From NCBI GenBank assembly GCA_037176845.1, contig JAYKXP010000052.1:186001-250000 (forward strand): DNA of 64,000 nucleotides, written 5' to 3'. Made by a program: the position numbers and the translations under genes. Numbering within the stretch: the stretch's first letter is position 1; every line of letters starts with the position of its first letter. The notes beneath the pieces were generated by a model. The model did no database searches and was not told where the DNA came from. It saw only the letters and a program-made list of their open reading frames with translations. Below are positions 11,062 through 48,331 of the stretch, in pieces. The DNA comes from Paramarasmius palmivorus. Lineage: Eukaryota > Basidiomycota > Agaricomycetes > Agaricales > Marasmiaceae.

Positions 11062-11953
11062 TTATTCTGGCACAGGAACAGGAACATCCATCTTTCCATC
11101 TACGTTCAACGCCACAACAAACCTACTCACAAAGTTATATCCTCCTGCTGTCGCAGTCGCTTCCACCATTTGTTGGTCGTTCAAAAACTGCGCAAGCCGG
11201 TCAAACACTTCGTCGGGGACATGGACGGATTTGGTGATCCAGTCGGCGAACAATATTGCCGCAGTGAGGGGCCCGCCGAGGATACTGGTGTAGTTTGCTT
11301 CATTTCCCTTTAGGAATGGCGGGGCAAAGCGTATTGCAAGAAGTTGGTCAAGGGTGAGACCTTCAGATCGACCAACAGATTCGTGTTGAATCCTGTGGGG
11401 CGTCAGGCTGTATCAAATCCAAAAATTTTTCAATAGGAATTCGTGTACCATTCATAGGCAGCGTTGTTCACGACCGCAATCCGAAGAATCTAGGACGCTC
11501 TGTTAGCCTGCGATGTGATGAACGATATAGCAAAACTAACAAATAATTCTCGCATATCTCCAGGTAATGTGCTATTATCTCTGATCGCACTAAACAACGC
11601 ATCCCATCCGGAAGCAATGAGTGGTGCATTAAGCCTATTTATGATTCAGTTTATACTACGACCACATATCAACGAGTCAAGAGAACGAGATCTCACAGCG
11701 CACCGTCCAAATCCAAAAGAGTACCATTAGTACGTCTGGAGCGAATCTTATCGGCAATCTAGAGCTTGGTAAGGTTAGTGAAAGGCTTCGGGATGGCAAT
11801 CCTCACCGGGTCTGTCCCTGGGGCAGGGAAGACATAAGGTACTCTCGCAGGTAGATTGTCATCTCTACTCTTCAATAAGGAAGAGATGGATACGCCAAGG
11901 GCAGCGCTGAAAAGACATCCCACCAGCAGGACTGGGGCGAGTAGTCTGACCAT
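11062..11953 (-). CDS. Secreted carboxymuconolactone decarboxylase/AhpD-like protein
   Basis: Five exons by eye; the first is 11807-11953 and the rest follow 48-62-nt introns. The start MVRLLAPVLLVGCLFSAALG is a clear signal peptide. The mature part reads PYVFPAPGTDPIADKIRSRR, then APLIASGWDALFSAIRD, MRELFILRIAVVNNAAYEW and HESVGRSEGLTLDQLLAIR. This order of helices (ELFILR...EW.QH) is that of the CMD/AhpD-like fold. The usual AhpD redox pair CxxC is not present, so a peroxidase role is unlikely. Related fungal proteins are mostly uncharacterised, secreted or organelle-directed. About 210 residues, ending VDGKMDVPVPVPE. The neighbouring GH16 gene is also secreted. Confidence 0.75.
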
Positions 11954-12121
11954 GTTGGGCCTACGTTGTGGAACGATTTCTCATCCTTTACACGATTGGC
12001 GCAGCCTTTATATGAACAGAACACGGACACGCGGTGATTCCGGTAAAGAATTTGCCAGTCCGGTAATACAGGTCAGACGATCGTGTTCGTGAGAGTAGTA
12101 CAAATGTAATGGTCGCTACGT

Positions 12122-13396
12122 TTAGTAACGCCCAACGTTTCCCTGGGCAGTGAAGCCTAACATGTCAACATTCGAATCCTTCGTGTAAATCTGAAGCCGG
12201 TTGATTTCCCAATAAGCATCTCTGAATGCTTGTGGATTGTTGTCAACGACTGAAATATATGTCAGATGGCAGAATGTGCGAATGGGTGCAATAACTCACA
12301 GTCAGAACAAGAAGAGCCACAGCCAGCTTTTGTAAAAGCGCTGCCAGCCCAGTCACCCTATAAAGCTTGTCAGTATCGGTTCAAGAGACCTTGGATAACC
12401 AGACCAACGCAGAGAGTAATATCGAACACTATGTTATGAGCATCGAAATGGTCCGAATAACGGCAGTTATCTTGAGTTGGGAAAGAGGCATCGGGGACTT
12501 TGAATCGGCTAAGATCAAGCTTTCCTGTGCAATTTCCTTGATGCAAGAGTTCTTGAGGAGTATCGGGAGAGTTTCTCGGAAAGAACCAGACGCGAATCGG
12601 AGACGTTTTTGCAAGTACGTAGATTCCACCTTTGTTTTCGTTGAAAGAAACGCCATACGAATGCGGTTGGGTAAATTCGACGCCGCAGCCTTGATTGAAA
12701 TTCACGCTCGAGTCGCAATTGCTGGAAACAGGTACTCTGGAGCAAAGGTAAGTAGCTAGAAACATGATGATGGGAAGTGACGTTCACCCTGTCATTACAC
12801 GCCCTGGATCACCACTATCAGGCATAGCGCAATTCGGTGTCGTGTGCAGAGATGCCACATTTCGTGTGTTCATGTTGACACCTAAGGCATGGTTAGGAGC
12901 ATATTAGCGAATGAATTTGCTTACCTTCAATGAGATCCAGCTCTCCTCCGTTTGGCCACGGTCCTTTCGCGCTGAGAGTCCAAAACGCCGGCCAGGTGCC
13001 GCAACCGATAGGCATGTGTTCAACATCGAGTACTATGACTGCTTCTTCGTAGCCAGCTCTTGAGGTTATCCGCACGCTATCCCGGCCTCGTTGGTAGGGA
13101 AGAACGTATTGTGTAGGGTCTACTCGCAAGACGAATTTGGAGTTGTCAGCAGAAGCTGGTTTGCATTAGGACTAGGGATATATCAAATGGCGAGGAAATG
13201 CACCGAAGGAGAGGTTCTTGCTGATTGCAGTCTGTAGGTCGACATAGTTGACTCGCCCATGAGTGGGATCGTCGTTGTTGAACCATGTAAAGCCTTCAAA
13301 GAAATCAAAGCCGGAGTAGTTGTCTTGAAGAGTGTAGAGTTCGTTTGCGGTAGATAACGCGAAGGTCGCATAGAGAAAGGATAGGAAGAGTAGCAT
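12122..13396 (-). CDS. Secreted GH16 endo-beta-1,3(4)-glucanase-type hydrolase
   Basis: Glycoside hydrolase family 16, a beta-jelly-roll enzyme acting on beta-glucans of fungal wall or plant matter. Signal peptide MLLFLSFLYATFALSTANEL. Then YSGFDFFEGFTWFNNDDPTH, GRVNYVDLQTAISKNLSFA, VLRVDPTQYV, SVRITSRAGY and HMPIGCGTWPAFW. The catalytic stretch GGELDLIEGVNMNTRN (nucleophile and acid/base Glu with the bridging Asp) is split by an intron. Downstream Cys-rich stretches (NQGCGVEFTQPHSYG, VWFFPRN) and the end RLQIYTKDSNVDMLG fit the fungal subgroup. At least six exons; the last coding exon ends TAC TAA at 12122. No C-terminal anchor is seen, so the enzyme is probably soluble. Confidence 0.88.
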
Positions 13397-13568
13397 AGTC
13401 CTAAGGCTAGAGTGTAACGGTGAGGGTTTGAAGGGAAGCCCTTCAAACCCTGAAAAGGCAACGACCGCCTGACCTCCGGCTATTTGACATCATGTTTACT
13501 ATGGGATATCACAGGCATGGATCCATTCAGCTTATATCTCTCGATTTCTGAGCAGTACTGTTCTCTTC

Positions 13569-15286
13569 ATGCCTTCTCATAGCCTCAGAATACCTTCCTC
13601 GACGGGTGCTTTGCGCATCGACCCCAGCAAACCTGTGAAATACATCAACCATTCGTCCGATACTCGTTCTCTCGCCCATGGTGATGTGATACGATATCTC
13701 GGCCATATTTTCGTTTGGGATGAACATAGTGTCCCAGAAGACGTTGTCGTGAAGTATGTCCTTATGTTCAAATGTACCATGCAGCGATTCTGACCCCCAA
13801 AGTCAGGTGGAGAATGGAAGGCGATCCTCTTTGCGATGCGGCAGTGATTCATCTCTTGTCTGGCAACTCTGCGGCCGGGCTCGACATGTTTCATAGGTTG
13901 CATACCTTCGTAACCAAACTTGATGCTCACGACAATGCGTCACCTGTCAGCACATTCTGGAAAGCAATCACAGAAGTTCCACCGACAGACATTCGAGTGA
14001 CAGACGAGCAATTCGACCAGGGCAGAGCTTTGTTTTTGGACAACAGTGTACAAATTGCTCAGTCATTGTTATACTACAGCCTTGCAGGAGGCTTCGCAAG
14101 GTATCGTGAAACATTGAGTATCTCCATTCCTTGCTCATGAATATGTTTAGCCCTCGAATCGTGCGAACTCTCGAAGCAATCTCTTATCTTGTCCCTTCAA
14201 AAGCAGGCGAAGTCTCCTCGGCTTCAAGTGACAGAACCTTCCGCAGACTCTTGGAGACATTTCAGTTCGTGCTCGATGTCATGAGATGCTGCTCTCCGGC
14301 ATCTGATTTTCGTGGCACCGCTCACATTTTACCCGGAGGTGAAGGTTGGAAGTCAATTGTTCGAGTCCGGATGCTCCATGGTGTGGCTAGAGAGAAAGTC
14401 CGAGCAAAGATCAAACGAAGCTCAGATGACCCTCATGTCAACGATGTTCCTATTTCTCAGGAAGATATGAGCGCTACGTAGGTTTACACATGTTTCATGG
14501 TCGTAACATCACTAAATTTTTCATGTATCTAGGCTTGCATCCTTCTCCACCGTCACTTTATGGACGCTAACCACTTTGGGGTTGACGCCACGCCGGGAAG
14601 ATGCCGAAGCATTCCTGGCTATCTGGAGGCACGTAGGATTCTATCTGGGCGTTTCGCCCACTATATTGCGGAGATACTTTTCCAACATAGACGTTTCGGA
14701 CCAGTTCTTGACATCGATGGTCATCCACCTATTCTCGCCCGACGACGAGAGCGATCCGAGCGCCTTCAATGCCCCCACGATGCCCATTTTAATGGCAACA
14801 ACAGGACGACCACCGCTGTATAACACGCTGGAGTGGAACTGCGCCGTCACACATCGTTTGCTAGGCTACGAACTTGCTACTCATCTTAAAGTTCCCGAGC
14901 CTAGTTGGACAATGAATGTGAAGCTCCGGTTCATCCTTGCGATTCAAGCTCTACCTGTGGTCTTTTCCAGGTACTATGGAGAAAGGATCCGGAGAGGTTG
15001 GCTAGAGAAGAGACGTCATATATATGGCGTTGGAATGGCTATGACGCTACGAGGCAACTTAGGAATGAGAAGGACAAAGTTTCGGCCAGGTGGCGAAGAT
15101 CATTCTCACTGGGACGATGAAAAGGTGAATCCTGACTTGGAAGGAGCGGCAAGGGCAACGCGACAGTTCCGCGAAGTACTCGCAGAAATGTTTTCCGTCT
15201 TGGTGGTATCCGGCATCCTAATCATCTACGCTTTTTGGAAATTTCAGGCATACGTTATATCCATGAACTTTGACTATAACTCCTGA
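13569..15286 (+). CDS. mpaB/Lcp-type oxygenase (DUF2236 family)
   Basis: Member of the 'ER-bound oxygenase mpaB / latex-clearing protein' family, haem-dependent oxygenases. Four exons: 13569-13753, 13807-14100, 14151-14477 and 14533-15286, 519 residues. Landmarks are VWDEHSVPEDVVVKWRMEGD (spliced), GGFASPRIVRTLEAISYLV, the family motif RVRMLHGVAREKV (RxxxLHxxVR type, haem-ligand region), SQEDMSATLASFSTVTLW and AFLAIWRHVGFYLGVS. A hydrophobic helix near the C-terminus (FSVLVVSGILIIYAFWKF) suggests membrane attachment. Agaricomycetes often carry several paralogues. The substrate is unknown. Confidence 0.85.
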
Positions 15287-15505
15287 TTCGCTCGGTTCAC
15301 TTCATCACCTTAAAACAATGTACTATCGACCTTGTCTTTCCTTCAGGACCCCTTTTTTTATCAGACTCTTGGACTCGACCGTAGATCATCGATGATGCAT
15401 CGATAATGTCTCGAACGCATAGAACTGTTCTTTGCAGACAGTGTCTTGGAATTCTATATAAAAGCACAGGCTTCTCGATGTTCAGTGCTACGCTCCGTCG
15501 AAAAT

Positions 15506-16015
15506 ATGTTCACAGCCCTCGTCGTATTCGCCACACTGTTCCATTTTGTATTGGGAATAGTCATCCTACCCGACGAATCATGGCAAACTCCAACATCAGG
15601 CTCTAGTGGCGGGGCAATCACATCTTGGCATCTGCGAACAGCAGTGCGAACCATCGATCCCTTTACACCGTTGACGACGACTTTCACGGTCTCCACTCAG
15701 GTCAACTCCGACACAACCATCTACGAGGTGCAGACTATTACCATGCATCCAGCAATCATGACGGATCTCGGGAAACCACATTCAACGCAATCGAGCCATC
15801 TATCTTCAGAAACTAGTCATCAGCGCACAGTCATTATCGTGGTATCTGTCGTCGGCGCAGCTATTGTGTTGATCTCCGTGTTTGTTATGATTGCTCGCTG
15901 GAGGGCGAGATGGCACGTCCGCCATTGGAGTAACTGGACTGCTGAGGGATGGCAGAACTTGGAAGGGGGAAAAACTAGGAGCAACGCTAGGGTAGAACAG
16001 GGAGCCGCTCACTAG
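15506..16015 (+). CDS. Single-pass (type I) membrane protein, function unknown
   Basis: Intron-free frame from the ATG at 15506, chosen because MFTALVVFATLFHFVLGIV is a good signal peptide, to TAG at 16013. About 170 residues. A Ser/Thr-rich extracellular stretch (about residues 25-105, candidates for O-mannosylation) is followed by one transmembrane helix (VIIVVSVVGAAIVLISVFVM) and a basic juxtamembrane tail (ARWRARWHVRHW). This layout is that of fungal wall-sensor-like or adhesin-like small membrane proteins, but no named domain is visible. Confidence 0.6.
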   Translation: MFTALVVFATLFHFVLGIVILPDESWQTPTSGSSGGAITSWHLRTAVRTIDPFTPLTTTFTVSTQVNSDTTIYEVQTITMHPAIMTDLGKPHSTQSSHLSSETSHQRTVIIVVSVVGAAIVLISVFVMIARWRARWHVRHWSNWTAEGWQNLEGGKTRSNARVEQGAAH

Positions 16016-16183
16016 ATTGAAGTAGAGGTGTGTAGAGATGATGTCTCCTGAGACCAGGAGTTTTTTTTGCCGGATTCTTATGGTGTAAATTCTTTAAATT
16101 GTAATCGTGAAACATACGTAACAACACTTATAACAGGGACGCGTCGGAAGCGCCTCTGTTCGCGCCTTTTGAGATTGTTCCTC

Positions 16184-18162
16184 ATGTTCAAATTGCTCGC
16201 TCTTTTCGTATTCTTTCATTTATTATCACCATCCTACGCGACAACTGGTTACATTCTTCCTATCACCCGTCGTTCGTTCAGCAACTCCGCCGATCCATCT
16301 ACTAAAAGAGGTTTTGATGTTGAAATCGCTGTGCGTGTCCTTGGATATTCTCGCATTGCCATTGTTCTAACGCCTTTGGCAGAATGGCGAATTGAAGGCC
16401 CTGTTGAGAAAATACGAGTCACTTGTTCGCCAAGATGGTTTCCTCAATCACTTCAATCCGGCAAACGACATCTCGGAAATTGTCAACGAAAAGTACCCCG
16501 ATGTCGACGATACCCTTTTGAACGCGATGTTCCGATATGGCCCATTCGACGATGACCCAAACGGCGACCTGGAAGATATCACCCATGTCTTCGACACAGT
16601 ACTATCGCCCCCTGGCATAATGCCTCTTCGCGACGATATACAGAATGGACTGGATTTGGTCTATTATGGGGGTTGTGGGATCGGAACACCACCGCAGAAA
16701 CTGACCGTGGACTTTGACACAGGTTCGGCAGACCTATGGGTGCCTAGCAACTGTCGCAATTGCGAGTCAATGCAGTACGAACCGGAGCGAAGCTCCACTT
16801 ATCAGAATCAGGGTTCACCATTCCACCTATTCTATGTTAGTCCGGCCAGTGGGCAGTCTTTGTATGCATAGTTGATCGATTATCTAGGGCACAGGTTCGG
16901 TTCGTGGCAAAACGGCGAAGGATACGGTAACAATAGCCGACATTCGTGTCGAAAATCAAACGTTCGCCTCAGTCACTCATCAGAGTTCTGAATTTACAGA
17001 ACAACCTTTTGACGGTATTTTGGGTGCTGCGTTCTCGACGATCGCCCAGTCCGGGGATTACACCTTTGTGGAAAATGCGATTTTGAAGGGAAAGGTACAA
17101 TTACCAATCTTCTCCGTACACCTGGAACGAGGGCGAGTTGATGGGTCACAAGTAAGTTATGTTCTGCAACTTGAGATGAGCGCCAGCGGCCGACTCTAAA
17201 CCGTTTATATTCAGGTCTGTTTGGGTTGCGTTGATCCATCGAAGGCCATGTCTCCACCTAAATGGATTCCTATCCTTCGCCGTGTAAGCCAAACGTCGAT
17301 GAGCGACTGTATCTTTTTGACGGGCTGGCTAGGCATACTGGTCCATCCCGTTGAATGCCTTAGGTGTTCAAGGCACTCAAGCCATCTTTGTCGATAACAT
17401 GATATCTGCGGTAGGTGATCGTAACGTCTTCACTTGCTCTGGCTAACATGTGTCCAGGCTATTGATACCGGGACAACCTTTATCTACTTGCCTGGCTATG
17501 CTGCTGATCAGCTGTATAGAATGGTGAGCAACGTTCCCAGAACGAACCCTTGGACGTCCTCAATTCGATACTATATATCGACAGATTCCAGGTGCACAAA
17601 ATGCAACAGAGTATGGCGCTACCGGTGGTAAGTTCGAGTGTTTGGCGGACTGTCCGGTTGTTCGACGCACTCTAGGATTCTACACGTACCCATGCAACCT
17701 AGTGCCCAAGATCAGTCTCACCTTTGCCGAACATTCCTTTCTCCTACACCCGGACGACTTTAATCTAGGTATGAAGGTGACTTTTCTTGGGTTCTTAATA
17801 CTAAATGTCGCAGGTACATCCGCTTCGGACCCATCGTAAGTCCAGGATGATATACCTATTCAAAAATTAAGCCCTTTGCCAGACGATGTGTAGGAGGAAT
17901 AATCGCGATTCGGGACAACTTGTGGCCAGCCACATTGGCTATCATAGGTGTGCTTAAGAAAAAACTTTCTATCACGGGAAAACGCTGATGGGTGTTAGGG
18001 GATGAATTTCTGAAGTCGTGTAAGTCGCAGAGAAAAGCATCCCTTCGCGTTGGTAACGCTTACAGGCATCCACTAGGGTACACAACGTTTGATTATTCTT
18101 CTGGAGGGAGAGTAGGTTTTGCCCCGAGCATCAACAATAAGTTCATCTCGCCTGTTGAATAG
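16184..18162 (+). CDS. Secreted pepsin-like aspartic protease (A1 family)
   Basis: Multi-exon gene with about 50-nt introns. Start at 16184: [19 protein letters not shown] is a signal peptide. After a propeptide ([20 protein letters not shown] region) the mature enzyme carries the first active-site motif [16 protein letters not shown], the flap-side [31 protein letters not shown], and the second motif [20 protein letters not shown]. It ends [20 protein letters not shown] with TAG at 18160-18162. Both catalytic Asp are present, so an active secreted endoprotease is likely. The final exons are short and their borders are less certain. The gene is convergent with the GCFC gene, with stops about 50 bp apart. 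Confidence 0.88.
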
Positions 18163-18213
18163 CACAATTGACGACAACCCAATGCCATCCTCCTCGTCGT
18201 AGTGTACATATTG

Positions 18214-20966
18214 TCAACTGTTCAACCTTGTCCTGATGTCTCTGGTCATAAGCTCTGGAGGTAACATGCTTGCTACCTGTCGGATCCAGGTAAGCATTTC
18301 ATCTAACATAAGCTAACATGTGCTCACTGTCTGAATAACATCGGCACCACCAACTTCCCATCCACCTTCTGCGATCCCAAGGATAAGTCCATCTACAATT
18401 CGTGCGGCCAATTGTCCCAGTCCAAATCGTTCTCCGGTCAGTTTTCGCCATTGCAGTAAGTTGGCCAACAGCTTCAATCGGCGCGTCAAGAAGCGCTGCC
18501 TTGATGGTACAGACTCTGGGTCAAAAGCCGGAGCTGGGCGTGTTGCCACCGTACTTGTGAATTTAGCTATTAGTTTTTCGGTTTCATGAATAGCTTTTTC
18601 AAAGCAGATTACGACCGATTTAGATAACACCTGACAGAACTTACGAGTTAGAAAGATTCGACAACATGAAGAAGTGCGATTACCTGGAGCTTGGGACTGC
18701 CCGGTTCAATAGTCGCTTCTAATTCTTCCATGATATCAATCACTCTCCGAATGTGCGAGTGTGAATAGACATCTAGAGCGCCCCCTTCGATGATCTTGGA
18801 CATTCTCGGGATTATGGCTGTTGTTATCATGGAAGACACGAGATCACCATCGGGGCCTAATTCCCTCGCTGTATCGGAGGGATCCCCAGGCCGAGAGTAG
18901 TCGTAGAGCCCTTGGTACCATCGGAAGCTTTCTAATCCTTTCTTGTCCTGTAAGGCAGTCAAACCGGTGCTCAACTCCCAAGTCAATCAAACGCAAACCT
19001 CAATACAATCCCAGCCAATGCATTCCAGTCTTGCCCAAAACTCCCATACACTGACCACACCTAGGCCACCCCAAGCACCAACATAACTGTCTGCGTACTT
19101 TTCTCTCCAAACACCCCACTGTCCTTGGCCCGGATCCAGAAACTCTTTCGCCTTCACATCAGACAAGACGTCTTGCGTTTGCGTGATAACCGATCGCAAT
19201 GCCGAACGATAAGCGTCTTCGTCTGCGGGTGGTATTTCAGAATCCGTTGAATATCCCTCTTCCTCCGCAGGTCTTGCTTTCTGACGCAATTGCCTTTGTT
19301 GGCGACGAGAGACTCGGGCGATTCGGCGCTGGCGTCTTGTAGCCTGAGGATCGGCCTCTCTCGTGGTTTCAGTATCTTCCAGTAACGGTAGGGGTCCGAG
19401 GAAGACCGAAAGGTCATCTTCATCATCTTGCTGTCTCCGGCTGCTTACCATGTCGTAGCGTTCTTTTAATAGCGATAGATGTCCTTCTTCAAGCTGTTCT
19501 AGAAGGGGGTACTGTGAAAGGGGTTAGTATATAACTCGTATTACACATAAAGAACGGGGTGATTATACCTTTTCATCTAAAAAGCCTGCGACACCTTCTA
19601 CCCACTCCCGGAAGGAACCAAACCAAGCACGTTTCTCCTCGGCTTTCCCAACAAGCTCTCGCATTTCTCTCTCTCTCTCATCGACTTGTTCGCGCTCCTG
19701 TGCAAGCGTGTTGAGGGCAGCTGTGTTACCTGCGTGTGACGTCGTCAACTGTGCCATCTGCTGTGTCAAACGGGCGAGAGAAGCACTGAGTGTTGGGATC
19801 GGCGTCGAAAGAGGTACTAATCCGAAAACGTTAGCAATATGATTGCACATTACAGAATGAATTGGCTGACTTGGTGCCGGTTTGTAGGGACGCTTGGATG
19901 GCTTTGATGCCGGTGCCGGTGACCGACTTGGGAGGTGGCCTCCTCGTCTGAGCTGCGCCTGTTCCCATTCGGTAGTTTCTTCATCTTCTTCGTCACTAGT
20001 GATGTATTTGATCTCATGGGCGAACACGGAAAGAGAAAGCTACTTACGCGTCAGCAATCATCTCTTTCATGGCTTCGCGGCGTTTGCTGGCCTCTAATTT
20101 GCGCGATTTTTTACTTAGAGCTATTCGTTCCTGCGCACTAGTATATTCGGCGTACTCTGAAGTATAGTCGTGAAAATATGTTCTTTTGTGGTACGACCGC
20201 GACTCACCATCGTCTGCTTCACCCAATTCGTCTTCTTCTCGCACAAGCCTACTTTCGGGATGCGGTCCTTGGTACTCAGGTGCCTTGGTGACCGAAAGAG
20301 AAATGAAGTCTTCGTTCCCGGAAGCTTTGGCTGCTCGCAGACGTTCTCTTCTTTCTTTCGCCTGTTTGACGGAAGATTCGGATGGTATAATCGTCTCTGA
20401 GGATTCTGGCAGGTTTTCAGACGCTGTGCCGAGAGGATGTATCATAGAACGACTTACCAGTGACTTCGTTGCCTTGAACGTTGTCTGCATCGAGGGACAT
20501 CATGGACATGTCTGCATCATATGGATCTGAGAGTGGAACGGGTGCCCTTGTTGATGTTGTACTTGCTTTGAGTTCATTTAGGTATGCCTGGTCATAAGTA
20601 GGTCGACTGGGACTTATGGTAGCTTGATCGAGGTTTGTCGGTACATTTCTAAAGGTCAAGGGTCAGGCAATCGAAATGATATGTTCTTGACACGTACGCA
20701 GAGCTCTGTCCCAAAGCCAGCTTGCGGCTTAATTTGGATTTCTTGAGCTGAAAAGCGTCTCCTCCCTCTTCAACCTCTTCATCTTCTCCGCCGAAACTGA
20801 GCCTAGATTTCGGCTTATTACGCTTTGCCTTGTCCTTGAATTTTTTGACTATGGTGGAAGGCGACTCTTCGGCAGTGGCAGTAACAGAATCATCGTCGAT
20901 TGAATCTTCTGGCGACGAGGGCCTCGTACGTTGAGTTGGCTTGGATTTTACGCGTTGCTTGAACAT
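18214..20966 (-). CDS. GCFC/PAXBP1-type spliceosome-associated protein
   Basis: Nuclear protein of the GC-rich-sequence DNA-binding-factor (GCFC2/PAXBP1, Ntr2-related) family, which works with Prp43/Ntr1-type factors in spliceosome turnover. The start MFKQRVKSKPTQRTRPSSPE matches the short basic start of the family. A disordered acidic/basic N-half follows, then a coiled coil (QMAQLTTSHAGNTAALNTLA), the signature GYSTDSEIPPADEDAYRSAL, and DPGQGQWGVWREKYADSYVG with ECIGWDCIE, the GCFC domain hallmark. The C-terminal helical part ends MLPPELMTRDIRTRL. At least eight exons with 50-60-nt introns. No break is seen. Confidence 0.88.
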
Positions 20967-21410
20967 GAAAATGATGACTGCATAGAACCAAAACCAAAGA
21001 ACCAAGGTACGGAACCGGGCGCCAGTCATCCAGCGCTTATGTCGAGCATAGCACATTTCGAACCACCATGCGAGTACCTCTCATCCAAGCCTTCAATGCT
21101 TCAGCGCTTCAGCTTCAGCTAGCTTACTCAAGTTACAGGAGTCTATAGGCTGTTAAAAGTACAGGTACGTATAGTAGGCTAGAGTAGGATCACATCGCCG
21201 ATGTCATTGATCCCGAAAATTATCCAGGTCAAGCGGTGTCCGCACGATTGGCCCCCGTTGGGCGTCTTGGAAGCGGTGGGCCAGGCAAGCAATCTTAGAA
21301 TCATTCTATTGAAACCAGAGAAAGGGCCGATGGGAAAACTGTTTCCACGCAATGCTCGATAGCAGCAGAAAGCGTAGAGTGAAAATGGCGTTCAATCGAA
21401 CTCCTATTTG
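20967..21410. other. Divergent intergenic region
   Basis: About 440 bp between the start of the GCFC gene (-) and the first convincing codons of the P-loop family gene (+). I see no RNA gene or repeat. A missing first exon of the plus-strand gene could lie here. An antisense open frame (21306-21656, -) overlaps the edge and is treated as a shadow. Confidence 0.35.
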
Positions 21411-23503
21411 ATGCCTTTTAACGTGGTGTGCGACTTGCTGGAATGTCCCTGCATTCCGATCATACACCCCATGGCATACCTCCCCTGCGAACATGCTCTG
21501 TACGGTCAAGATATTCAGCCTCCAGATATGCTCCATATCAAAACCTTTGGAAAGGCCCGTATAGCTCACGAATTGGGCTCCCATGCGTTTGTTATCCCAT
21601 TCATTCTTGGTCGAGATGGCAGCGATTGTTCGTCTATGATCAATATCGTTCGCCACTATGGCTGACCAGTCTTGTTCACAGGTCGTCCCGGTCCCGACGT
21701 GTCAATCCTGGAACTACTCAGAGTCGACTATAATTCAGAGAATATCCCAGAGTCTGCCGAAAGTCATTCAATGCGTTGTGCCTGGTTTCTTGTAGCGCTA
21801 TTCTCCAAGATTCGCGACGAAATATCGACGTGGGAGCATCATCAAAACTATCTTGAACTATCTCGAACTTGGAAGCAATACTTCTGGGTGCATAAGACTC
21901 GGATTCTCGAGGACGTGAGAGCCCGAACGGTGTGTTCGAGAGTTGTTCGCGGATAGTGATTCGAGTTGACTTTGCTTTGGCAGATTGACCTTATAAGTAT
22001 CGACCCTTGGCCGACAGATGGTCTCAGATCCCAATGCAAAAGTGAGGGTCGGAACCTATTTGTAGCTTTGTAACGACTAACAATTGACAGAACAAGCGAG
22101 GCTCGCAGCGGAGTCCCTAGTTGCCCTAATCAGTCGACTGGCCGGCGGGGAACCCTCAACCCTTCAGACCATTCGACTCATCATCTCTTTCGACCACGCA
22201 GAAGTTCTTGCAGAGGCCGAATACAGCATGATAATCCTTTCTCACTTGTTCACCCATCTTCCAATCATGTTCCTCCATATCACCACCCGCCCCATGCACG
22301 GCACTATTTCATTCACCCGAACTGCACTGCCTACCGTCAATTACCCTTTCGCGGCACTTCACGAAGACTCCATGTTTGTTCCGTTACCACTCGATCTTCC
22401 CTCAGGATGTTTGCGAAGATCGATCCAGGAATTCCTTAGCGGACGAAGATTGTATGCTAATATTCTCTGCCAGCAGGGACGTAGACTGATACCATTGCCA
22501 TAGGTGGAAAGCAATCTTCTGTACCCCCACCAAATACCACGATAACGTCCCAATCGCGGAGTCTGCACCCTTATACTTACAGGACTGGGCAACCACCATT
22601 GACGATAGGCAGAAGGATGTTAACAATCTCTCCCGTCTCTTGGGTCTGACTCTGGTCCGTCCAACACCAGACTACGCAGTCGCGGACGAATTAGCAATGG
22701 TCGAAGACTCTTTTCCTCATATAGTTTCCCTGACTCAGGAAGCTCCGGACAGTGAAGAAACGAATTCCAGAACTTCACGCAGTCGACGGACGCTGCTTCT
22801 CCAAGAATGTGTCGCACACGGGATGGTGCTGGAATCCGCTCCCGAAATCGCTCTACGTCTATTACTTCTCAACACCCAAGACCATACATCAGCGCGGCTT
22901 CTTGCAGATTCCTCCAATTGCACTAGCATACCTGTCCGAGTGCTGGAGTTTCTAACAATCCTGTTTGGGGAACGAAGCCTCTCGACTATCAGCAGCGAAT
23001 TGGTGACCGAATTACCGACAATAGGCCATGTCTTTCCCAATGCTTGGATCCATTTTAACCATTTCATCGATTCGGCCCCACTCAAGTCCAAGGGCAACAC
23101 AATTGGGGCTGTCGTCGAGTCGGCTTTGGTTCAACGCGCGGCGGTCATCGATGATCATCGTATATTTATCCCAGTTTTTTCAGCATCCTCTCCAGAGCGA
23201 GCTATCAGCTCGTCTGTTCTCACCACTTCGGCCATTATCGTCAGTCTCGGGAACGATGATCGCTTGACGGACGATTTGTACTTGGAGTCCTTACCAGAAC
23301 TTTTCCCGCATATCCTCGTCAATATAACGCTGACCAATGAAGCGGATGCTGCTGTGAGGCTAGGAACACGTAGAACGGGGGCAAGTGGGGCCTTTTCGTA
23401 TGAGATTGTCGCACGCGGAAGTTGTTCTGGGATCTTCCATGCTTTGGGAATGGAAGGTGAAACAGTGGCGCCGATCTATCAAAGACTTTTTGGAACTACA
23501 TGA
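21411..23503 (+). CDS. Agaricomycete-expanded P-loop family protein, Walker A degenerate
   Basis: Spliced model of about five exons. IAHELGSHAFVIPFILGRDG joins (intron about 21627-21680) to RPGPDVSILELLRVDY. The following exons give IDLISIDPWPTDG, then LIISFDHAEVLAEAEYSMI (Walker-B-like strand), LPIMFLHITTRP, and RRLWKAIFCTPTKYHDNVP across an intron with donor GTATGC. This order (hydrophobic strand, 'FDHAE', 'LFLSTT'-type strand, 'GRxLW') is that of a large, poorly characterised Agaricomycete family often described as putative P-loop or Crinkler-like ATPases. The expected GxGKS loop is reduced to TFGKARIAHELG, so either ATP binding is lost or a first exon is missing. Start uncertain. No in-frame stop. 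Confidence 0.6.
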
Positions 23504-23710
23504 TGGACTCTCCCATGTATCGACATAAGTTCCAATTCCATAGGGGTTGGTATACTTATTCCGTCTTACAATGTATTTCATTCGATAGCAATACACGAAC
23601 ATTTTACTCAGTGTTGATCGAGTGGCAAGTTGAAGTCAGTCAAAATCACAAGGTATCAGTATACTAACTAGCTAGATAGGATAGATAGATACGACTCTTC
23701 CTTAACGACC

Positions 23711-24781
23711 ATGGGCAAGGCCAAAGACGCTGCAGTAACTGGTCCTCCTGTACCACAAAAGACAGCAAAGACAGAAAAAATCAAGCCATTTCAGAAAGGT
23801 TTGAACTTCAGCCATCACCTGCGCCATTTTCAAAGTAACCTTGACAGCTTACTAGGCACGCACTTCGTCAAGTACTACCTCACATTCTATAATATTCTCT
23901 CGGCCATTGGTTGGACATATATCCTCATCCTCATCCTTATTCATGTGTTCAACCTGGATGGGAGCGCTTCTTCGACTCCTTTAACGACTGCCACCGCCTC
24001 ATCGATTCTTTCTCGATTCCTACCCAAATTTCTCTTACCCTCGACCAAACCGCCACTCAGCGTTTCCAGGGTAGAGGTACTGTTGCCAACATGGTTTCTA
24101 CCGATCTATCGCAGATCCTCTTCAACATACACACGCGTTGGAACCAGTACCGCGATCGTGCAAAGTTTTGCTGTTCTGGAAGTGGTTCATGTACTCCTCA
24201 AGTGGGTGCGCAGCCCCTTGCAAACAACTGTCATGCAGGTCGCTAGTCGGCTTTTCATAGTGTGGGGAGTAGTAGAACAGTTTTCTAACGTGCGTGCCAA
24301 CTTCTCGTCTGATAGCATCCAATTACTGATGGTTTTTGTTATTTGATAGGCTCGGACGAATCCTCTTTTCACCTCGATGGTTTTCGCATGGTCATTGACG
24401 GAAGTGATAAGATACTCTTTTTATGCGTCTGCACTGCTGGAATATGACTCGCCAATCTTGACACTCCTCCGTTATACAACATTCTATGTTCTGTATCCGT
24501 TAGGTGCTGGGTCGGAGGCCTTCTTGAACTATTCGACATTGCCTCGCTCCAACCCGCTTTCGAGGAGCTGGATCACTGGAACGTGGAATGCTTATGATTA
24601 TCTGCGAGGGATCTTGTTTGTTTTATGGTGGCCTGGTGAGCTCGTCATGCATTGTTGCATTGATTATTCTTGCTGAAGCATTAGCGTTTGTTCAGGCTTG
24701 TTCGTGATGTACACTCATATGCTGAAGCAAAGACGGAAAGTGTTTGGTGGTCAGAGATTGGGTATTAAGAAAACGAACTAA
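23711..24781 (+). CDS. PHS1: Very-long-chain 3-hydroxyacyl-CoA dehydratase (HACD/PTPLA)
   Basis: Third step of the ER very-long-chain fatty-acid elongation cycle, removing water from 3-hydroxyacyl-CoA. Exons 23711-24289, 24350-24635 and 24696-24781, about 316 residues. A Lys-rich cytosolic start (MGKAKDAAVTGPPVPQKTAK) precedes KYYLTFYNILSAIGWTYIL. Family motifs: VVHVLLKWVRSPLQTTVMQV, SRLFIVWGVVE, SLTEVIRYSFYA and YVLYPLGAGSE, the last holding the catalytic Tyr and Glu. Six hydrophobic segments. It ends with a short basic tail (KVFGGQRLGIKKTN). The first luminal loop is longer than usual. The gene looks intact. Confidence 0.95.
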
Positions 24782-40317: not shown

Positions 40318-41492
40318 TTGGGTGCTTTTTTCAGCGCTTTTTTAACAGGAAAATTATTCCCACACCTCCTGACATCATTTGGGTGCCTCCCTACTCCACC
40401 TTTGGCTTCCCAAAATGGAAGGTGGCCTTACCTCAATATTTTCCACCTGGATTCAATGCACTGGGGGGCTATAAAAATCGCATTTTTGAGGGAATATGTT
40501 CCAATATGTTCCAAAAGCATGCCCCTGCAATTGGGGGGCAGGGGAATGCAAAAAAGCGGTCCAAATATGGTAATTCAGGAAAATGGCCTATTGGATCTTG
40601 GGCTACAGGCCAGATGTTGGCATGGGGTAAGTTGGAGGACATAGATACATTGAATACAAGCCTGGGAACACTAAATAGTACATATATTGGTGGGATAATG
40701 GTGCACAAATATCTAAAATACTGAAAATCTCTGAAATTGGGGAAATAAAATTACAGGATAGGATGTAATGCAGCTGGGGCTTAGATATTGTGGATGGGGG
40801 ATGATATATATGTCCCCTAGATTGAAATACAATCCTGGAGGGCTGCCTATTTTTCCAGATTTATTACAACTAAATTTGCTTTTTTTTGACATTAATAATG
40901 CTACACCACAGGAAATGAATGGGATGAGCTAATTCTTGTTTATAACCCACTCTATGGTGTATAGATGAATATATACTTGCCCAAGCACTCCTGTATGTGC
41001 AACACCTTGTTTAATCCAATGTATTGTACAGTTATGTAACACAGGCAGTAGTACATGAATAGCACCTCAGGGAAGCGTTCCAGCACAAAGGGGAGTTCAG
41101 AATCGAGTTCAGGCACCCAAAATACACTTTCCTATTATAAAAGAACATTTTTTGAATACATCTATATGTTGCTATACAAAAAATCACATTTTTAGGGGTT
41201 TTTTTTTGTACTGGAGCATGGGGATTGCTCTAAAAATCACCAAAAATGAATCAGAGGCTGTTCACTGTGCATAGAACAGAAATATTAATTGCCTCCATGA
41301 ATCCCATGACAGGAATCCCTATGCCAGATGCATCATTTCTTTCACAATTACAGAAAACAGGTAATATGAATGTAGTATTGCAGGGAGCAATCTGGGGGCT
41401 TGGGAAACCTCAAAATCGAATTCAGGATGAAGAACTACTTAAGAAATGACCCAGGTTTGAAAGGAATCCAATCACTGTAGCTTGAGATATGT
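40318..41492. repeat. Dispersed repeat, copy A
   Basis: Two segments (about 40318-40500 and 40842-41492) are closely similar to 58461-58640 and 58665-59324. The first segment is in the same orientation and the second is inverted. Shared words include ATTATTCCCACACCTCCTGA and TTGGCTTCCCAAAATGGAAG. The second segment keeps an open frame in both copies (MNPMTGIPMPDASF / MNPMTGILMPDASI), but no protein family is recognised. Confidence 0.7.
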
Positions 41493-41745
41493 AATTTCTT
41501 CCTTTGTAATGACTTTTGGATGAGCACCTGTACTACCACATAGACTCTGAGCTACTCAATCTTTTTTTTTTTTGACCTTGTACTTCATACATTCTCTGTT
41601 ATCAATCTTGTTTTCTGTATTGCATGTCCCACAGTCATGATAAAAGGTGTAAACTCACATTGGTAACAATGGTTATATATTTATCTAGTTGTGATAGACT
41701 TGTAACCACTCACTGCAGGTGTTTGATGACAGTCGATCAAACACT

Positions 41746-41866
41746 CAGCGCAGCGACTGGTACAAAATCTCACGATTTTGGTGGGTCGCGGATTTGTCAC
41801 GTGAGTTTATTTAACTTAGTCGCAAAAACCGACCATCGACAACCCACTTGCTTCTCAAACCTCTCC
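41746..41866 (+). repeat. Left terminal inverted repeat, 121 bp
   Basis: Pairs with 47921-48041 over its whole length. Mismatches cluster around TCGCA/CCATG near the middle-inner part; the outer 60 bases are nearly identical. Contains CACGTG (E-box-like palindrome) at about 41798-41803. Confidence 0.8.
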
Positions 41867-42024
41867 ACTTTGCTCAAGAAGTAGCTAGATCTACTGTAGT
41901 AATCAAGGTGATTAACGAGTTTTTATCCACTAGTGAAAATATGAGATATTCGTCGAGATATAAGCTGAAAACTGACTGGAATTACAAGCTCAGGAATTGA
42001 TGCGTACACATTCATTTTATCCAT

Positions 42025-45000
42025 ATGCCTGCTGTCCCAAGCAAATGAAGATGTTCAGAAAGTAATTATAGGCCCCCAGGATCATATTACAAGAAGGCAC
42101 GGTCCGAAGCACCTTCTCTCGCACGCACCAGACCACTGCCTGAGACCCCCACACCTGCTTCCAATCTCGTCAAATCAGATGACGATCTTGTTCCTGAAAT
42201 CCCTACTAGCAGTGCGCCAGGGTCTCCATCTTTCTTCGATGACCAGCCAATGGAACCTCCTGATGCCAATCAGCTGACATTACCTCAACCGACCATTCCA
42301 ACACGACGCAGCCGCGTTGCAGAACCTACTCAAAACTCCTCCCCCATATCTATCTTTGCACCCAGCCCCAAAAAATCTGCGATTGGTGGACGCCCTCGTG
42401 TGAAGAAAGCTCACCATAACCCGTGCGCGAGTATGGAGGAAAGGGGTAACAAGGAGTGGCAGGATAGGCGTGCTGCACAGCTATTAGCAGAGGAGGCTGC
42501 GAGAGCATTGGCAGCAGAGGAAGAGAAGCGAGCTCGGGTAGCAGAGATAAAGAGGCAGGGGGTGAATCGAGCGCAAGATGTTTGGGGTTGAATCACAAAG
42601 TCAGAAGCAGATGGAGGATTCGGTTTCTCTTCATTGATGGAATTCTTCGACTATGCGCTTGATATAGAGAAGGATGGTGACAATGTACAAGCACATCGTA
42701 ACATGACCCGTTTCCTTAACACCAATGGAGCTTCTTTGGCTGAAAAGATATTCGAGCGTGCGCCGGATGAATTCGACAAGTTTTTGCAAAGTCCATTTAT
42801 GCAGAAGAAACTACGTGAAGAGGGGGAGGCTATCCAGAAGCTCCTGACTCGGGAGAAGGGGACCACAATGCAGAGCCTGCTGGACACGTTTGACCTGGAG
42901 GCTCTAGAGAAGGATGTACAGCGGGTAGCTCCAACAATGTGGAGTGTTTTGACGGATGTCACTGAACTTGAGGAAGACTCGAGGCGGAATAAAGAACTGG
43001 TGCGTCCGCATCGTTATCTGGTGTATGTTTTGTATCTAATTATCTGTGTGTAGGTTCTTACAACAATCTGTGTGATGATCAGCCTTGTTCGTTCTCAAAA
43101 AGCGAACAATTTCCAGGTTGTCATGGGCCTATTCTTACTTGGCTCAGGTGCATCAAAGCGAGAAATTGACGTGTTCGCACATGCAGGGCTATCTGTTTCA
43201 TATCCAACAGTCATGAATCACATCAAACGCGTCTCAAAAGAGAACATTGATGTTCTCGTGGGAGCAATCAGGAGCTTCATGTGTGCTCTCGTATGGGACA
43301 ACATCAATTTCGCGTTCTGTGTCAATTCACAGCAACTCAACTCCAAGGATCACTTTGATAGTGGGACTGCCGCTACACTTGTAGTCCAATGGGATCCCTT
43401 TACCAGACAGAATGCCACACATGGCACCCTTCCTCTGTTGATGAAGGAGTCTCGAGAGACAACACATACACCAATCAAAGACCTCTCTTCTCTCCTTCTT
43501 CCTTCTGCTGAAGACACGGTGGCGCTGCAGCAATGCCTGATTTGGCAGATGAAGCAATGCCTGATTTGGCAGATGAAGCAAATCATTCTCAACCACTGTC
43601 CACACCTTGGCCACCTGAAGGAGAACTTTCCAGAAGTGCTGCCCGTTGCCACAGAGCAGATCGAACCTCACATTACCCAACAATACCCACTCCCTGCTAT
43701 GCACACAGACGAATCTACACTTGATGGAACAATCAAGATTTACGAGTCGCTTCTGCACGCATTAGGGATGACCAAACAAGATCTTGAGCATCACGGTATT
43801 CTCTTTGCCGACGGAGACCTTCTGACGTGTTCATTAATAGACAAGGTAAGTGTTCAATTTAAATCATTCTCGCCTTTATCTGTCACAGTTGTTCTGACGT
43901 GAATACAGGCCCAGTCTGCACACCGCAACAGTGAGGAGATTCTTGCTTCAATGTGTGCTCTCACCCCACAGTTTGGGTTGTTTCATTGCAAGATGGCCGG
44001 CTGTCAAATGGTGATCAATGAACATTGGGGAAAGCCGAATTCATTCTTTCCAGGTAGCCTCTGGTGGGAAAGCAACACCCTATTGAAATGAAAAGCCATG
44101 TCCGCGGGTTGGCAGTCAAAGAAGGCTATGCCATGGAAACCATCACATGAGCTTATCCAGATTTCACTCGCAGGCCATATACTTGATGCTTTCTGAATCC
44201 ATTGCGGGAGTGACAACTTTGAAGGCTGGGCAAGGAACTCAACGATGGCGGATTTCAACGTGGTAGCGACTCGGGTCTATGAGCGTCTATTTACCAGTAA
44301 AGCCTATCAAGCGGAGAAGCGCCGGAGTGAACCTGACACAGTTCTATGTAACAATATCCTCTACAATCGCGACACACTAATGTATTGGCTTTTCGTCACG
44401 TCGATCAAAGCCGGCAACATAGGGCGAATCGTTCTTGTTTTACGTGTATGGATGATCATGATGAGGGCACCAAAGACAATGCCTCGTTACGCTGATGCCA
44501 TCTTCGAAACTCTTGGGCGATTACAGGAGTGTCCGGAATATGTACGGTATGTTGTGATGACTCTATTATTGATGCCATCATGTCTAACACAGTTTAGAAA
44601 ATTCTTCCTTCACAATTGGCTTGTCAATCTTACTGGAAAGCCTTATGGTTTCAAGGAAGTTGACTTGCTACAAGAGCATCAAAATTTCTGGCTCAAAGCA
44701 GTCTATGCTGCAAAGGGGGCGAATGCAAGCTGGGAATGGCTATCAATGATCTCAGTGTGTATCTATACACTGCGAGAGGCATTGCGAACAGTTTCAAAGG
44801 CTTTTAAGACGCCTATGCATGGCTTGAAACACACTGTTCCAGACATGTCAAACGAGATCCAACAACTTGCAAATGCTCTCCGAGATGAGCAAGTTCAGGA
44901 ATACATCCCTGATCGCCCAGCTAATCAATCAGTAGACCCTGTGCGGGACCTGTTTCATGAGGGAATGAGATATGGGAACAAGCGATCGGCATTTGCTAAG

Positions 45001-45189
45001 TACCGGGAAGATGAAGTGGTATGGATAAATGAAGGGCACGTTGGACAGGCTGATGCTGATGATGAAAATAGTGGTGATGATGCAGTTTATATGCCCTTGA
45101 GAGAAGACCTAGAGGTTGACAATGAGGAGCCATATGAATTACAAGATTATCTCATATCATTAGCAGTACAGGCTTGTAGTGAGACTTAG
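42025..45189 (+). pseudogene. DUF6589-type putative transposase, broken by four TGA codons
   Basis: About 930 codons with introns near 43007-43056, 43843-43908 and 44547-44594. From ATG 42025 (MPAVPSK) the frame runs through a disordered region, EERGNKEWQDRRAAQLLAEE and LDIEKDGDNVQAHRNMTRFL, to the DUF6589 core: SGASKREIDVFAHAGLSVSY, FMCALVWDNINFAF, HGTLPLL, MTKQDLEHHGILFADGDLLT, RNSEEILASMCALTPQFGLF and NWLVNLTGKPYGFKEVDLLQ. In-frame TGA lies at 42046, 42589, 44089 and 44194; in each case the frame simply continues, and Arg (CGA) would fit. A 24-bp tandem duplication (QCLIWQMK twice) is present near 43530-43580. DUF6589 proteins are widespread and multicopy in Agaricomycetes. A transposase role is inferred from the terminal repeats. 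Confidence 0.75.
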
Positions 45190-45195
45190 AATACA

Positions 45196-47780
45196 TTAAT
45201 CTTCATCACACCATCCAGGTGGGAATCGGCGTGGAGGAAGTAAGTCGAATGAGACGTCATGCTCCTCCAGACTCTGCTGTAGCTGTGCATCCAGAACGTC
45301 CTCCAACATATCTGCATGTTGTACAATAAGAGATCCCTTCTGATTGAATGTTTGACAGTTGAAGAAAAGCAGTCTCCATGCATCGACAAATTCTTTGACT
45401 GTGCTATAACCATGCAGTGGACCAGCATGCATTAATTTCTTGATCTTTGACATAGAGATCGGCTGTTCAATGACCTCATAATAGATGGGCCAAGCCTGTC
45501 CAACAAACTTCAGTGATATCTAGTGATATGTAATGGGGTTTCGTACCGTTTTACAAGGCAAAGCTAAAAAAGGTTGACACATACGTTCTTCCTCATCATG
45601 TTTCTTCTTCCCCCGACCCTGCTGCACTTGGTTTCCAGTCCGGACATTATATACCGCTTGATATACCTCTTCAAATAACTCTGTTAGGATACGTCTCCGA
45701 TCCTTTTCTGCCATGGCTAGGAACTGATTGAGGTGGCGTTCCTGGGCAGCTTCTTCACGGGCAAGCTGATTGGGATCAGGATGTAGCTGAACCTGTTCCG
45801 CAACAATCTTGACCACTTCCTCGCCGAACCTTTCTACTCCCAAAGCCCAAGGTATAACGTTGCGAAATATGTCAATGGATGTTACGGCCCGGGGACGTGT
45901 TGATATCTTCTCAATAACATCGTCATCAAGAATGTAGTCCTCAACAATGATGTCCTGGTTAGGATAGTGAGTCGACAGAGCCTCTCCTCGCCATCTCTGT
46001 AACGCAGAGGAAACAGCATTTTGGAGTTCCTCCGAGACCTTGGCAGCACGCTTAGCTCGAGTTGGAAAGGGGTATTTGACCTTGAGGACTTCGATCGGAA
46101 ACAACTCGGGCTGGCAGTTATCACAGCACCGAAAGTTTGGTGGTGGCACAAACAGCGAGGGTGCTGTATATAGCAATCAACGACTTGAATGTGGCAATCA
46201 CAGATGAAACTTACACTTCTCTACATTGCCAAAATACTCATCCCAAACTCGGCGACGACATTTCTGTGTGGCGATAAATGTACTGAGAAAGCGGCAGTCT
46301 CGTACCTCAAATTGAGACTTAGGTGCCTTCCTCTTCCCTCGACGCGACACTGTCAACTGTGTATCTGCTTCATTTTCTGGCGCTGGATCCTCTGTATCAA
46401 TCGCAGCGATTCGTGCCTGGTCTGGAGCAAGTGTTGCCTCTGCATCTTCCTCATCAGATGAATGTTGATCTGCAGGCTGCGAAGCTCCATTGGATTCATC
46501 GCCTTCTTCTTCGTCATCAAGGTCCATGAAATGTTGACTATACGCAGTCTTCGTAACGAATAGAAACACTTCACCGATATCATTGGGATTCTGAGCACAA
46601 CGCCCGACCTTCTGTACAAAAGACGAGAAGCTTTGCGGTGCATGCCATAAGACTACTCGCCGGACCCCTCGGAAATCCATTCCCTGTACTAAGTGTCAAT
46701 GAGTGATGACACACATACAAAGGATGTACAAACCATGCCCAAGGCGTCAGTTGCTGGTACACCAAGATGACTCCCGTCGGTAAGTCCCTCCTGTATTATC
46801 TTCTTCCGGTGTTCGTCAACAAAACGATGATAGAACTCGAATGTGGTCTTTGGTATGTATTCGGGTCGATGCTTGCGCAAGAAATCTTGAATGTTCTCTG
46901 CTTCCATGCGGCTGTTGACATATATGAGCGTCTGGGGAAAGTCTTCAGCTGAAGCAGAAGCTTTGTTAGGGAAGAGGAAGAGGAGGTCGCCATATGTGTC
47001 TTGCGGGTGTTGCATAATACGGACCGAGAGCGCCACATTGGGTTTGGAATTGGAGACAGCGACATGAGGGCAGTCATTGGCCAACCCTAGCTTCAGTCGT
47101 ATGTCGGTAATGATGTCGACGGGCATGGTGGCGCTAGCCGCAAGAACCGGGATAGCACTGTGCAATCGGGCACGTAACTTCCCAAGTACAGCGTATTCTG
47201 GACGGAACTCGCCGCCCCATTCGCTGATGCAGTGGGCCTCGTCGACGACAACTGCTTTGCAGTTTGATTTGAATGCCTTCCTCTTGAGAACCTTCTCGTG
47301 AAATGTATTGTCCAAGGCCCTTTCGGGGGACACAAAAATCACCCTGTATTTGATCCTGGTTGTGTTCTGGTGCTTCTGTAGGGAATATTAGCATGTTATA
47401 TAAAGTTGATATAGCACCTCAAACAAGTCCTCCGCCTTAATACTCTTCGAGTGCAGAGCTACTGCAGCTATGACCCTATCTTCCAGATCCTTCACTTGAG
47501 CATCCATTAGCGCATTCAACGGGCTGACAACAAGGATTACTGGATCATTAGAGCGAACTGGTGATCCAATCTTCCAATGGTAGAACAGAGGATAGTAGAA
47601 AGTGAGTGTCTTGCCGCCTCCAGTGGGAACATTGTATATGACACTTTGACCACGGATGATGTGTTGTGCTGCCTCTTCCTGATAGTCTCTCAGGGTAGAA
47701 ACACCAAAAACCTCACATAGATGTGTTCTTGCGTCCTTTAGACGGTCTTCGTCCAGCCTGGTCGCTCTACAGGGAGGCAT
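45196..47780 (-). CDS. RecQ-like SF2 helicase with C-terminal bromodomain
   Basis: At least five exons with about 40-50-nt introns. Start at 47780 (MPPCRATRLDEDRLKD). Helicase motifs in order: LRDYQEEAAQHIIRG (motif 0), YNVPTGGGKTL (Walker A, residues about 50-59), VVSPLNALMDAQV (Ia), VVVDEAHCISEWGGEFRPEY (DEAH), VLAASATM (III), TLIYVNSRMEAENIQDFL (IV), PATDALGMGMDFRGVRRVVL (V) and FVQKVGRCAQNP (VI, Arg replaced by Gln). Then comes a Cys-containing RQC-like part, FRCCDNCQPELFP. After an acidic and coiled-coil linker and a short intron (about 45510-45550) the C-terminus reads AWPIYYEVIEQPISMSKIKK, YSTVKEFVDAWRLLFFNCQ and TFNQKGSLIVQHADMLEDVL: a bromodomain with the acetyl-lysine-reading Asn. 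No stop interrupts it. Confidence 0.85.
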
Positions 47781-47920
47781 GAAGGACAGAGAGGAGCTGA
47801 GGGGCGGATGTGATCGAGGCAGGCCATAGCGACGGAACGGGGGCAGATTTCAAAAAACAGAAAAAAACTTGTTGCTCGGGAGGTGAAGGCTAATAATTCT
47901 AGATACATTCGGCGATGATA

Positions 47921-48041
47921 GGAGAGGTTTGAGAAGCAAGTGGGTCGTCAATGGTCGGTTTTCATGGCTAAGTTAAATAAACTCACGTGACAAATCCGCG
48001 ACCCACCAAAATCGTGAGATTTTGTTCCAGTCGCTGCGCTG
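47921..48041 (-). repeat. Right terminal inverted repeat, 121 bp
   Basis: Complement of 41746-41866. Just outside it, at 48065-48082, lies a further degenerate inverted copy of the first 18 bases (CATCAGCACAGCGGCTGG), which makes a small palindrome with the element end. Confidence 0.8.
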
Positions 48042-48331
48042 ATGTGTAGGGTAGGGCCCCAACTCATCAGCACAGCGGCTGGTTCGAGTCTATAGTTGTG
48101 AGTGCTTGTGCAGTTGTCTCAATCCTCTGTCTCTCTCTCTACTACATCATATATCATTGCCCTATTGAAATGACACTTAGGTATACCAGCTAAGCTGCTA
48201 TTAAGCCTGTTTAAGCACATAAAAGCAGCTAACACTAAATGCTGCAACATAGCATTTAGTGTTAGCTGCTAAGGTGCTAAATGCTATGCTATGCTAATAA
48301 GCAGCTTTTAGCCTGGCAGTTAACATCCCTA

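Follow-up and report, generated by a model that had tools for sequence, protein, structure and literature searches.

A transposon-borne RecQ-like helicase with a C-terminal bromodomain, probably captured from a host SNF2 gene

Introduction

Much is still to be learned about how DNA transposons reach their targets and persist in chromatin, and the locus described here raises this question in a specific form: from where did a transposon-borne helicase obtain a bromodomain, and what may the element gain by keeping it? The locus lies in a stretch of 64,000 nucleotides of the Paramarasmius palmivorus genome (hereafter the window). Histone readers are known to guide mobile elements: chromovirus integrases bear a chromodomain, which reads methylation, and retroviral integrase is guided by host BET proteins. 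The element in the window resembles these systems in joining a histone reader to a mobile element, but they are retroelements, and their reader either recognizes methylation or is encoded by the host. A limited literature search, which does not establish absence from print, found no transposon with a bromodomain of its own.

Results

Structure of the helicase-bromodomain gene

The gene runs from an ATG at 47780 to a stop codon that ends at 45196, on the strand and between the outer coordinates given by the original prediction (Table 1). Placing its splice sites with the help of other copies gave four introns of 42, 50, 51 and 51 bp; a single intron at about 45510-45550 had been predicted, and the last of the four lies near that place. 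A Pfam search of the spliced product detected DEAD (94.6 bits), Helicase_C (39.0 bits) and ResIII (33.1 bits) together with the bromodomain PF00439 at residues 683-758, whose 45.8 bits against a cut-off of 21.7 confirmed the claimed bromodomain. RecQ_Zn_bind (PF16124) scored 23.7 bits, slightly below its cut-off of 25. The last exon by itself gave a bromodomain match of 41.1 bits (E = 1.8e-10), indicating that the match is not due to chance.

Table 1 Positions of the element, its genes and their parts in the window
Feature	Position	Strand	Description
Left target-site duplication	41686..41694	.	9 bp, TAGTTGTGA; repeated at 48093-48101; single in related C13 empty site
Left terminal inverted repeat	41695..41927	+	first bases TAGACT
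DUF6589 gene, presumed transposase	42049..45189	+	PF20231; several exons, limits approximate
Helicase-bromodomain gene	45196..47780	-	5 exons, 796 aa, no internal stops; spliced and searched with Pfam
Exons of helicase-bromodomain gene	47780-47418, 47375-46734, 46683-46215, 46163-45547, 45495-45196	-	
RecQ-like helicase core, DEAD + Helicase_C	46594..47687	-	best solved relative 1oyw, E 7.6e-33
RecQ-like zinc-binding motifs	46114..46260	-	CRRRVWDEYFGN ... CCDNC; PF16124 23.7 bits, cut-off 25
Probable first bromodomain helix	45687-45646	-	aa 651-664, upstream of PF00439 match
Bromodomain, intron-split	45313..45591	-	aa 683-758; PF00439 45.8 bits
Last intron, in bromodomain ZA loop	45496..45546	-	51 bp, phase 0; position and phase as in host SNF2 gene
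Putative acetyl-lysine-binding Asn	45345-45343	-	residue 748, in bromodomain
Right terminal inverted repeat	47860..48092	-	
Right target-site duplication	48093..48101	.	9 bp, TAGTTGTGA

The helicase is called RecQ-like here because the NCBI RecQ family model TIGR00614 scored 185.6 bits, below its cut-off of 219.8 bits; 1oyw, its best solved relative, is presumably E. coli RecQ. The earlier description of a full SF2 motif set was slightly overstated, as DEAD and Helicase_C were found but motif VI of the window copy is altered (QKVGRCAQN). The residue Q of this motif (GRCAQ) is R in the copies on contigs C202, C15 and C101, and C in the copy on C94.

The coding sequence reads MCQPFLALPCKT, intron, AWPIYYEVI at the last intron of the window copy, MCQPFLALPRRN, intron, RKDRYYEVI in C202 and MCAPFINLPRRN, intron, DWSEYYEVI in C15, and all three have the aligned intron in phase 0. 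In the copies on C94 and C101 an in-frame stop comes immediately 5' of the expected donor. Because the last intron lies inside the bromodomain, and the C-terminal region of the helicase and the start of the bromodomain are in a common exon, helicase and bromodomain are one gene as judged from the exon structure, in line with the predicted fusion. The possibility of two separate genes was rejected on the position of the last intron. The Asn and the two tyrosines (YY) of the ZA loop are kept in all four aligned transposon bromodomains. In bromodomains this Asn binds acetyl-lysine, and the transposon domain likely does so too. Structure models from single sequences were too poor to use, both for the bromodomain region (174 aa including in-frame intron residues; pLDDT 40.4), where a four-helix fold would be expected, and for the DUF6589 ORF (330 aa; pLDDT 37.1).

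Boundaries of the transposon and state of the window copy

The DNA surrounding the gene served as the query in a search of the genome to which the window belongs (68.3 Mb). Homology with other copies stops at position 48092, and on C13, C33 and C40 the flanking DNA runs on without the element, as expected of related empty sites. In the alignments the overlap between the flanks is exactly 9 bp at C13 and C33 and 18 bp at C40; TAGTTGTGA occurs once at the C13 empty site, and a related word is found at C33. The end of the shared DNA and these overlaps place the limits of the element at 41695-48092 (6398 bp). Its terminal inverted repeats are identical in 181 of 239 aligned columns, with core arms of 145 nt at 88%. 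Perfect 9-bp duplications also surround insertions on C202 (gggtagagc), C88 (atagttaat) and C13 (tcaggaaaa), so that all four insertions with both ends on one contig, including that of the window, have one. C94 and C101, which are near-identical, have one end each and the same flanking 9 bp after correction for orientation; on this ground they are probably one insertion present twice, as alleles or by duplication. A single end was found for C15.

The mobile setting that had been proposed for the helicase-bromodomain gene was thus borne out, including its DUF6589 partner, which lies convergently on the plus strand. PF20231 matched this partner with 77.2 bits (43054-43902) and 189.1 bits (44197-45189) in two reading frames. 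Two in-frame TGA codons, at 44089 and 44194, interrupt the frame in the window, where C202 and C15 are open; for this reason the DUF6589 gene of the window looks inactive, and a full transposase is probably absent from this copy. With the altered motif VI of the helicase in addition, the window copy looks worn. A literature search on DUF6589 found no paper.

Copies and relatives in the genome

The bromodomain exon matches eight places in the genome, and in five of them (the window on C52, C202, C15, C94 and C101) the helicase adjoins it. These five loci represent about four insertions, that is, four loci and about three insertions besides the window. The C202 element (~11106-24007; L039, L044) has its helicase split by ~6.3 kb of other DNA and its 9-bp duplication intact. 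Pieces of DUF6589 adjoin the gene on C202, C15 and C94, but the 10 kb examined at C101 yielded none. The elements on C88 (1867 bp) and C13 (1448 bp) have matching ends but are internally deleted, having lost the bromodomain and most of the helicase.

PF00439 has at least 19 matches in the genome, namely the five transposon loci and at least 14 others. DUF6589 is more widespread, with at least 62 matching stretches on at least 28 contigs, and at least 13 contigs carry a RecQ-like helicase within 5 kb of DUF6589 (C157, C21, C20, C214, C36, C53, C163, C115, C22, C91, C171, C146 and C311). These other elements resemble that of the window in this pairing but differ in that PF00439 is not found on the 13 contigs among the matches listed. 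They form a diverse set within one genome.

A helicase tree was built from 20 rows, consisting of the window copy plus 19 of the 30 other helicase matches; it omits C94 as a near-copy, further hits to a locus already represented and several of the weaker matches. The four bromodomain copies and the deleted copies C88 and C13 formed one clade (100/100), with the two deleted copies nested within it and the other 14 rows outside, although the program warned of long branches, C21 among them. Among the matches listed, PF00439 was not found on the contigs of these 14 rows either. One helicase clade with the bromodomain-less rows outside it fits a single gain of the bromodomain, as far as the tree of these sequences tells. 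A protein search with residues 500-796 returned none of 2350 candidates at E <= 0.001, and no relative was found in the viral contigs searched.

Origin of the bromodomain

For four of the transposon bromodomains, all but that of C94, matches were sought among 13 of the 14 other stretches in the genome, with C5:1019246 omitted. In phmmer the best host match of all four was a gene on C4 (L006), the SNF2/STH1 orthologue, with 48.4, 37.8, 58.5 and 50.6 bits, and the next best host stretch reached 34.1, 28.1, 34.2 and 37.0 bits, respectively. A SnAC domain (60.6 bits) lies upstream of the bromodomain in this gene, identifying it as a gene for an SNF2/STH1-type ATPase. Its bromodomain is split by a 52-bp phase-0 intron (VPDRR, intron, DYPDYY), which coincides in aligned position and phase with the last intron of the transposon gene. 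Inspected by eye, the bromodomains of the C5:514 pair, C201, C10, C3 and C191 read through the intron site, as do those of C81 and C52:30 and the first domain at C5:60789; in the second domain at C5:60789 and in two at C5:1017 the introns lie elsewhere. In the alignment of bromodomains a tryptophan before LLF/LMF is seen only in the transposon rows and SNF2, and in the tree the transposon bromodomains form one group (99/99) inside an SNF2/RSC-type group (96/99).

On these sequence comparisons the bromodomain is very likely of SNF2 type in origin. Since every transposon bromodomain compared matches the SNF2 orthologue best among host stretches, and the intron is common to both in position and phase, the simplest reading is that the domain was probably captured from the host SNF2 gene. 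The parent and the presumed offspring differ in context, as the bromodomains of SNF2, STH1 and BRG1 follow an SNF2-type ATPase with SnAC and not a RecQ-like helicase. Some observations count against an SNF2 origin. In a comparison with the PDB, the top totals belonged to polybromo-1, RSC4 and BRD4, chains with several bromodomains, and yeast STH1 gave only 33.4 bits; moreover, the bromodomain tree did not resolve SNF2 as sister to the transposon bromodomains. Taken one by one, the best domains listed for polybromo-1 and RSC4 scored 29.3 and 37.6 bits, and the best chain with a single bromodomain was SNF2L4 (43.9 bits).

Constraint on the bromodomain

Six pairs of copies were used to estimate dN. 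The part of the bromodomain encoded by exon 5 had 48-58% identity and a dN of 0.33-0.53, and the upstream part (residues ~640-697) a dN of 0.43-0.71, with synonymous change saturated in five of six pairs for each; the helicase stretch had a dN of 0.23-0.33 with saturation in all six. The helicase stretch thus changes more slowly than the bromodomain, in which the first part evolves fastest. The dN values of the exon-5 part, reached with synonymous saturation in five of six pairs, indicate that the bromodomain is long kept by selection, less strictly than the helicase.

Discussion

Our preferred reading, which we hold with moderate confidence, is that a transposon of the AcademH kind carries a selected bromodomain captured from SNF2, which tethers its helicase to acetylated chromatin. 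The element would encode the DUF6589 protein, presumed to be the transposase, and a convergent RecQ-like helicase. An ancestor of one sublineage would have captured host SNF2/STH1 genomic DNA, intron included, so that the bromodomain came to lie at the C-terminus of the transposon helicase, and the fusion would then have spread into several divergent families and been retained by selection. By binding acetylated nucleosomes, the bromodomain would tether the helicase there along with the rest of the transposition complex, and excision or target capture would thereby happen in accessible chromatin.

SNF2/STH1 is the ATPase of the SWI/SNF and RSC remodellers. We tentatively suggest that the transposon took the acetyl-histone reader of these remodellers together with its intron, fused it to the helicase and lets it guide where or when transposition occurs. 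That the bromodomain serves in choosing donor or target chromatin is likewise conceivable but short of probable, and the insertion in the window, a single site, lies in repeated DNA and does not favour targeting. What is new here is the SNF2 orthologue as best host match throughout and the common intron, hence the probable capture. The common intron would be a clear trace of a host chromatin domain taken up by a transposon from genomic DNA; the helicase-fused SNF2-type bromodomain might let the element sense the chromatin state of the host, and it offers a defined feature that can be mutated to study target finding and survival of DNA transposons, for which the relatives without a bromodomain in this genome are natural controls.

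The main alternative is that, with the same origin, the bromodomain instead serves expression, by holding the helicase on acetylated donor chromatin so that the element stays open and transcribed or escapes silencing. We consider this rather unlikely, although the sequence offers nothing to separate such a role from targeting. It would suit the presence of the bromodomain on the helicase and not on the DUF6589 protein, and also an insertion within repeated DNA. A precedent is found in fungal transposons with captured TET/JBP dioxygenases, which are thought to counteract silencing (PMC12730594). These are, like the element in the window, fungal DNA transposons with a captured epigenetic function, but theirs is a DNA-methylation enzyme, in contrast to the helicase-fused histone reader here.

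The transposon may also belong to another helicase-bearing superfamily, such as KolobokH, which appears distinctly unlikely. Kolobok target duplications are TTAA, and those found here are of 9 bp. AcademH DNA transposons were reportedly described by Kojima in 2020. They are a helicase-bearing Academ lineage said to make 9- or 10-bp duplications (PMC10045372), and the element in the window, also a fungal DNA transposon, likewise encodes a helicase and makes duplications of 9 bp. It differs in that its helicase ends in an SNF2-type bromodomain, a domain not mentioned for AcademH in the parts of the literature available. Both KolobokH and AcademH are given as sources of helicases, and helicases are the commonest transposon-derived domains in fungal fusions, with bromodomains unmentioned in the portion of the main text available (PMC10799480). 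The putative assignment to AcademH is based on the helicase and the length of the duplications, and for these two features the earlier term Academ-like fits.

It is very unlikely, in our view, that the bromodomain is a passenger, acquired in one capture event and since inherited by the element without contributing to transposition. Its faster evolution relative to the helicase would agree with this, as would the 14 other helicase rows that lack it and its loss from the deleted C88 and C13 elements with matching ends, though these lost most of the helicase too. A passenger should have decayed, however, and here the frame, the intron and the Asn were kept despite synonymous saturation in five of six pairs.

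It is extremely improbable that the gene is a host gene, domesticated or never mobile, beside transposon debris: its frame is open where that of DUF6589 is broken, but matched inverted repeats and the 9-bp duplication surround it, the element on C202 is arranged alike and has a duplication of its own, the altered motif VI does not suggest a kept enzyme, and the empty sites elsewhere speak against a plain host gene.

Some minor observations concern the ends and flanks of the element. A 111-bp miniature on C6 (L059:1450-1560) consists of both element ends, with 98% identity in the matched parts and without a 9-bp duplication. The left flank contains a high-copy repeat of ~1.2 kb (~40327-41493) that has dozens of matches at 85-89%, many of them paired in inverted orientation, and the right flank, outside the element at 48224-48270, contains a perfect inverted repeat of 20 bp whose arms are 7 bp apart.
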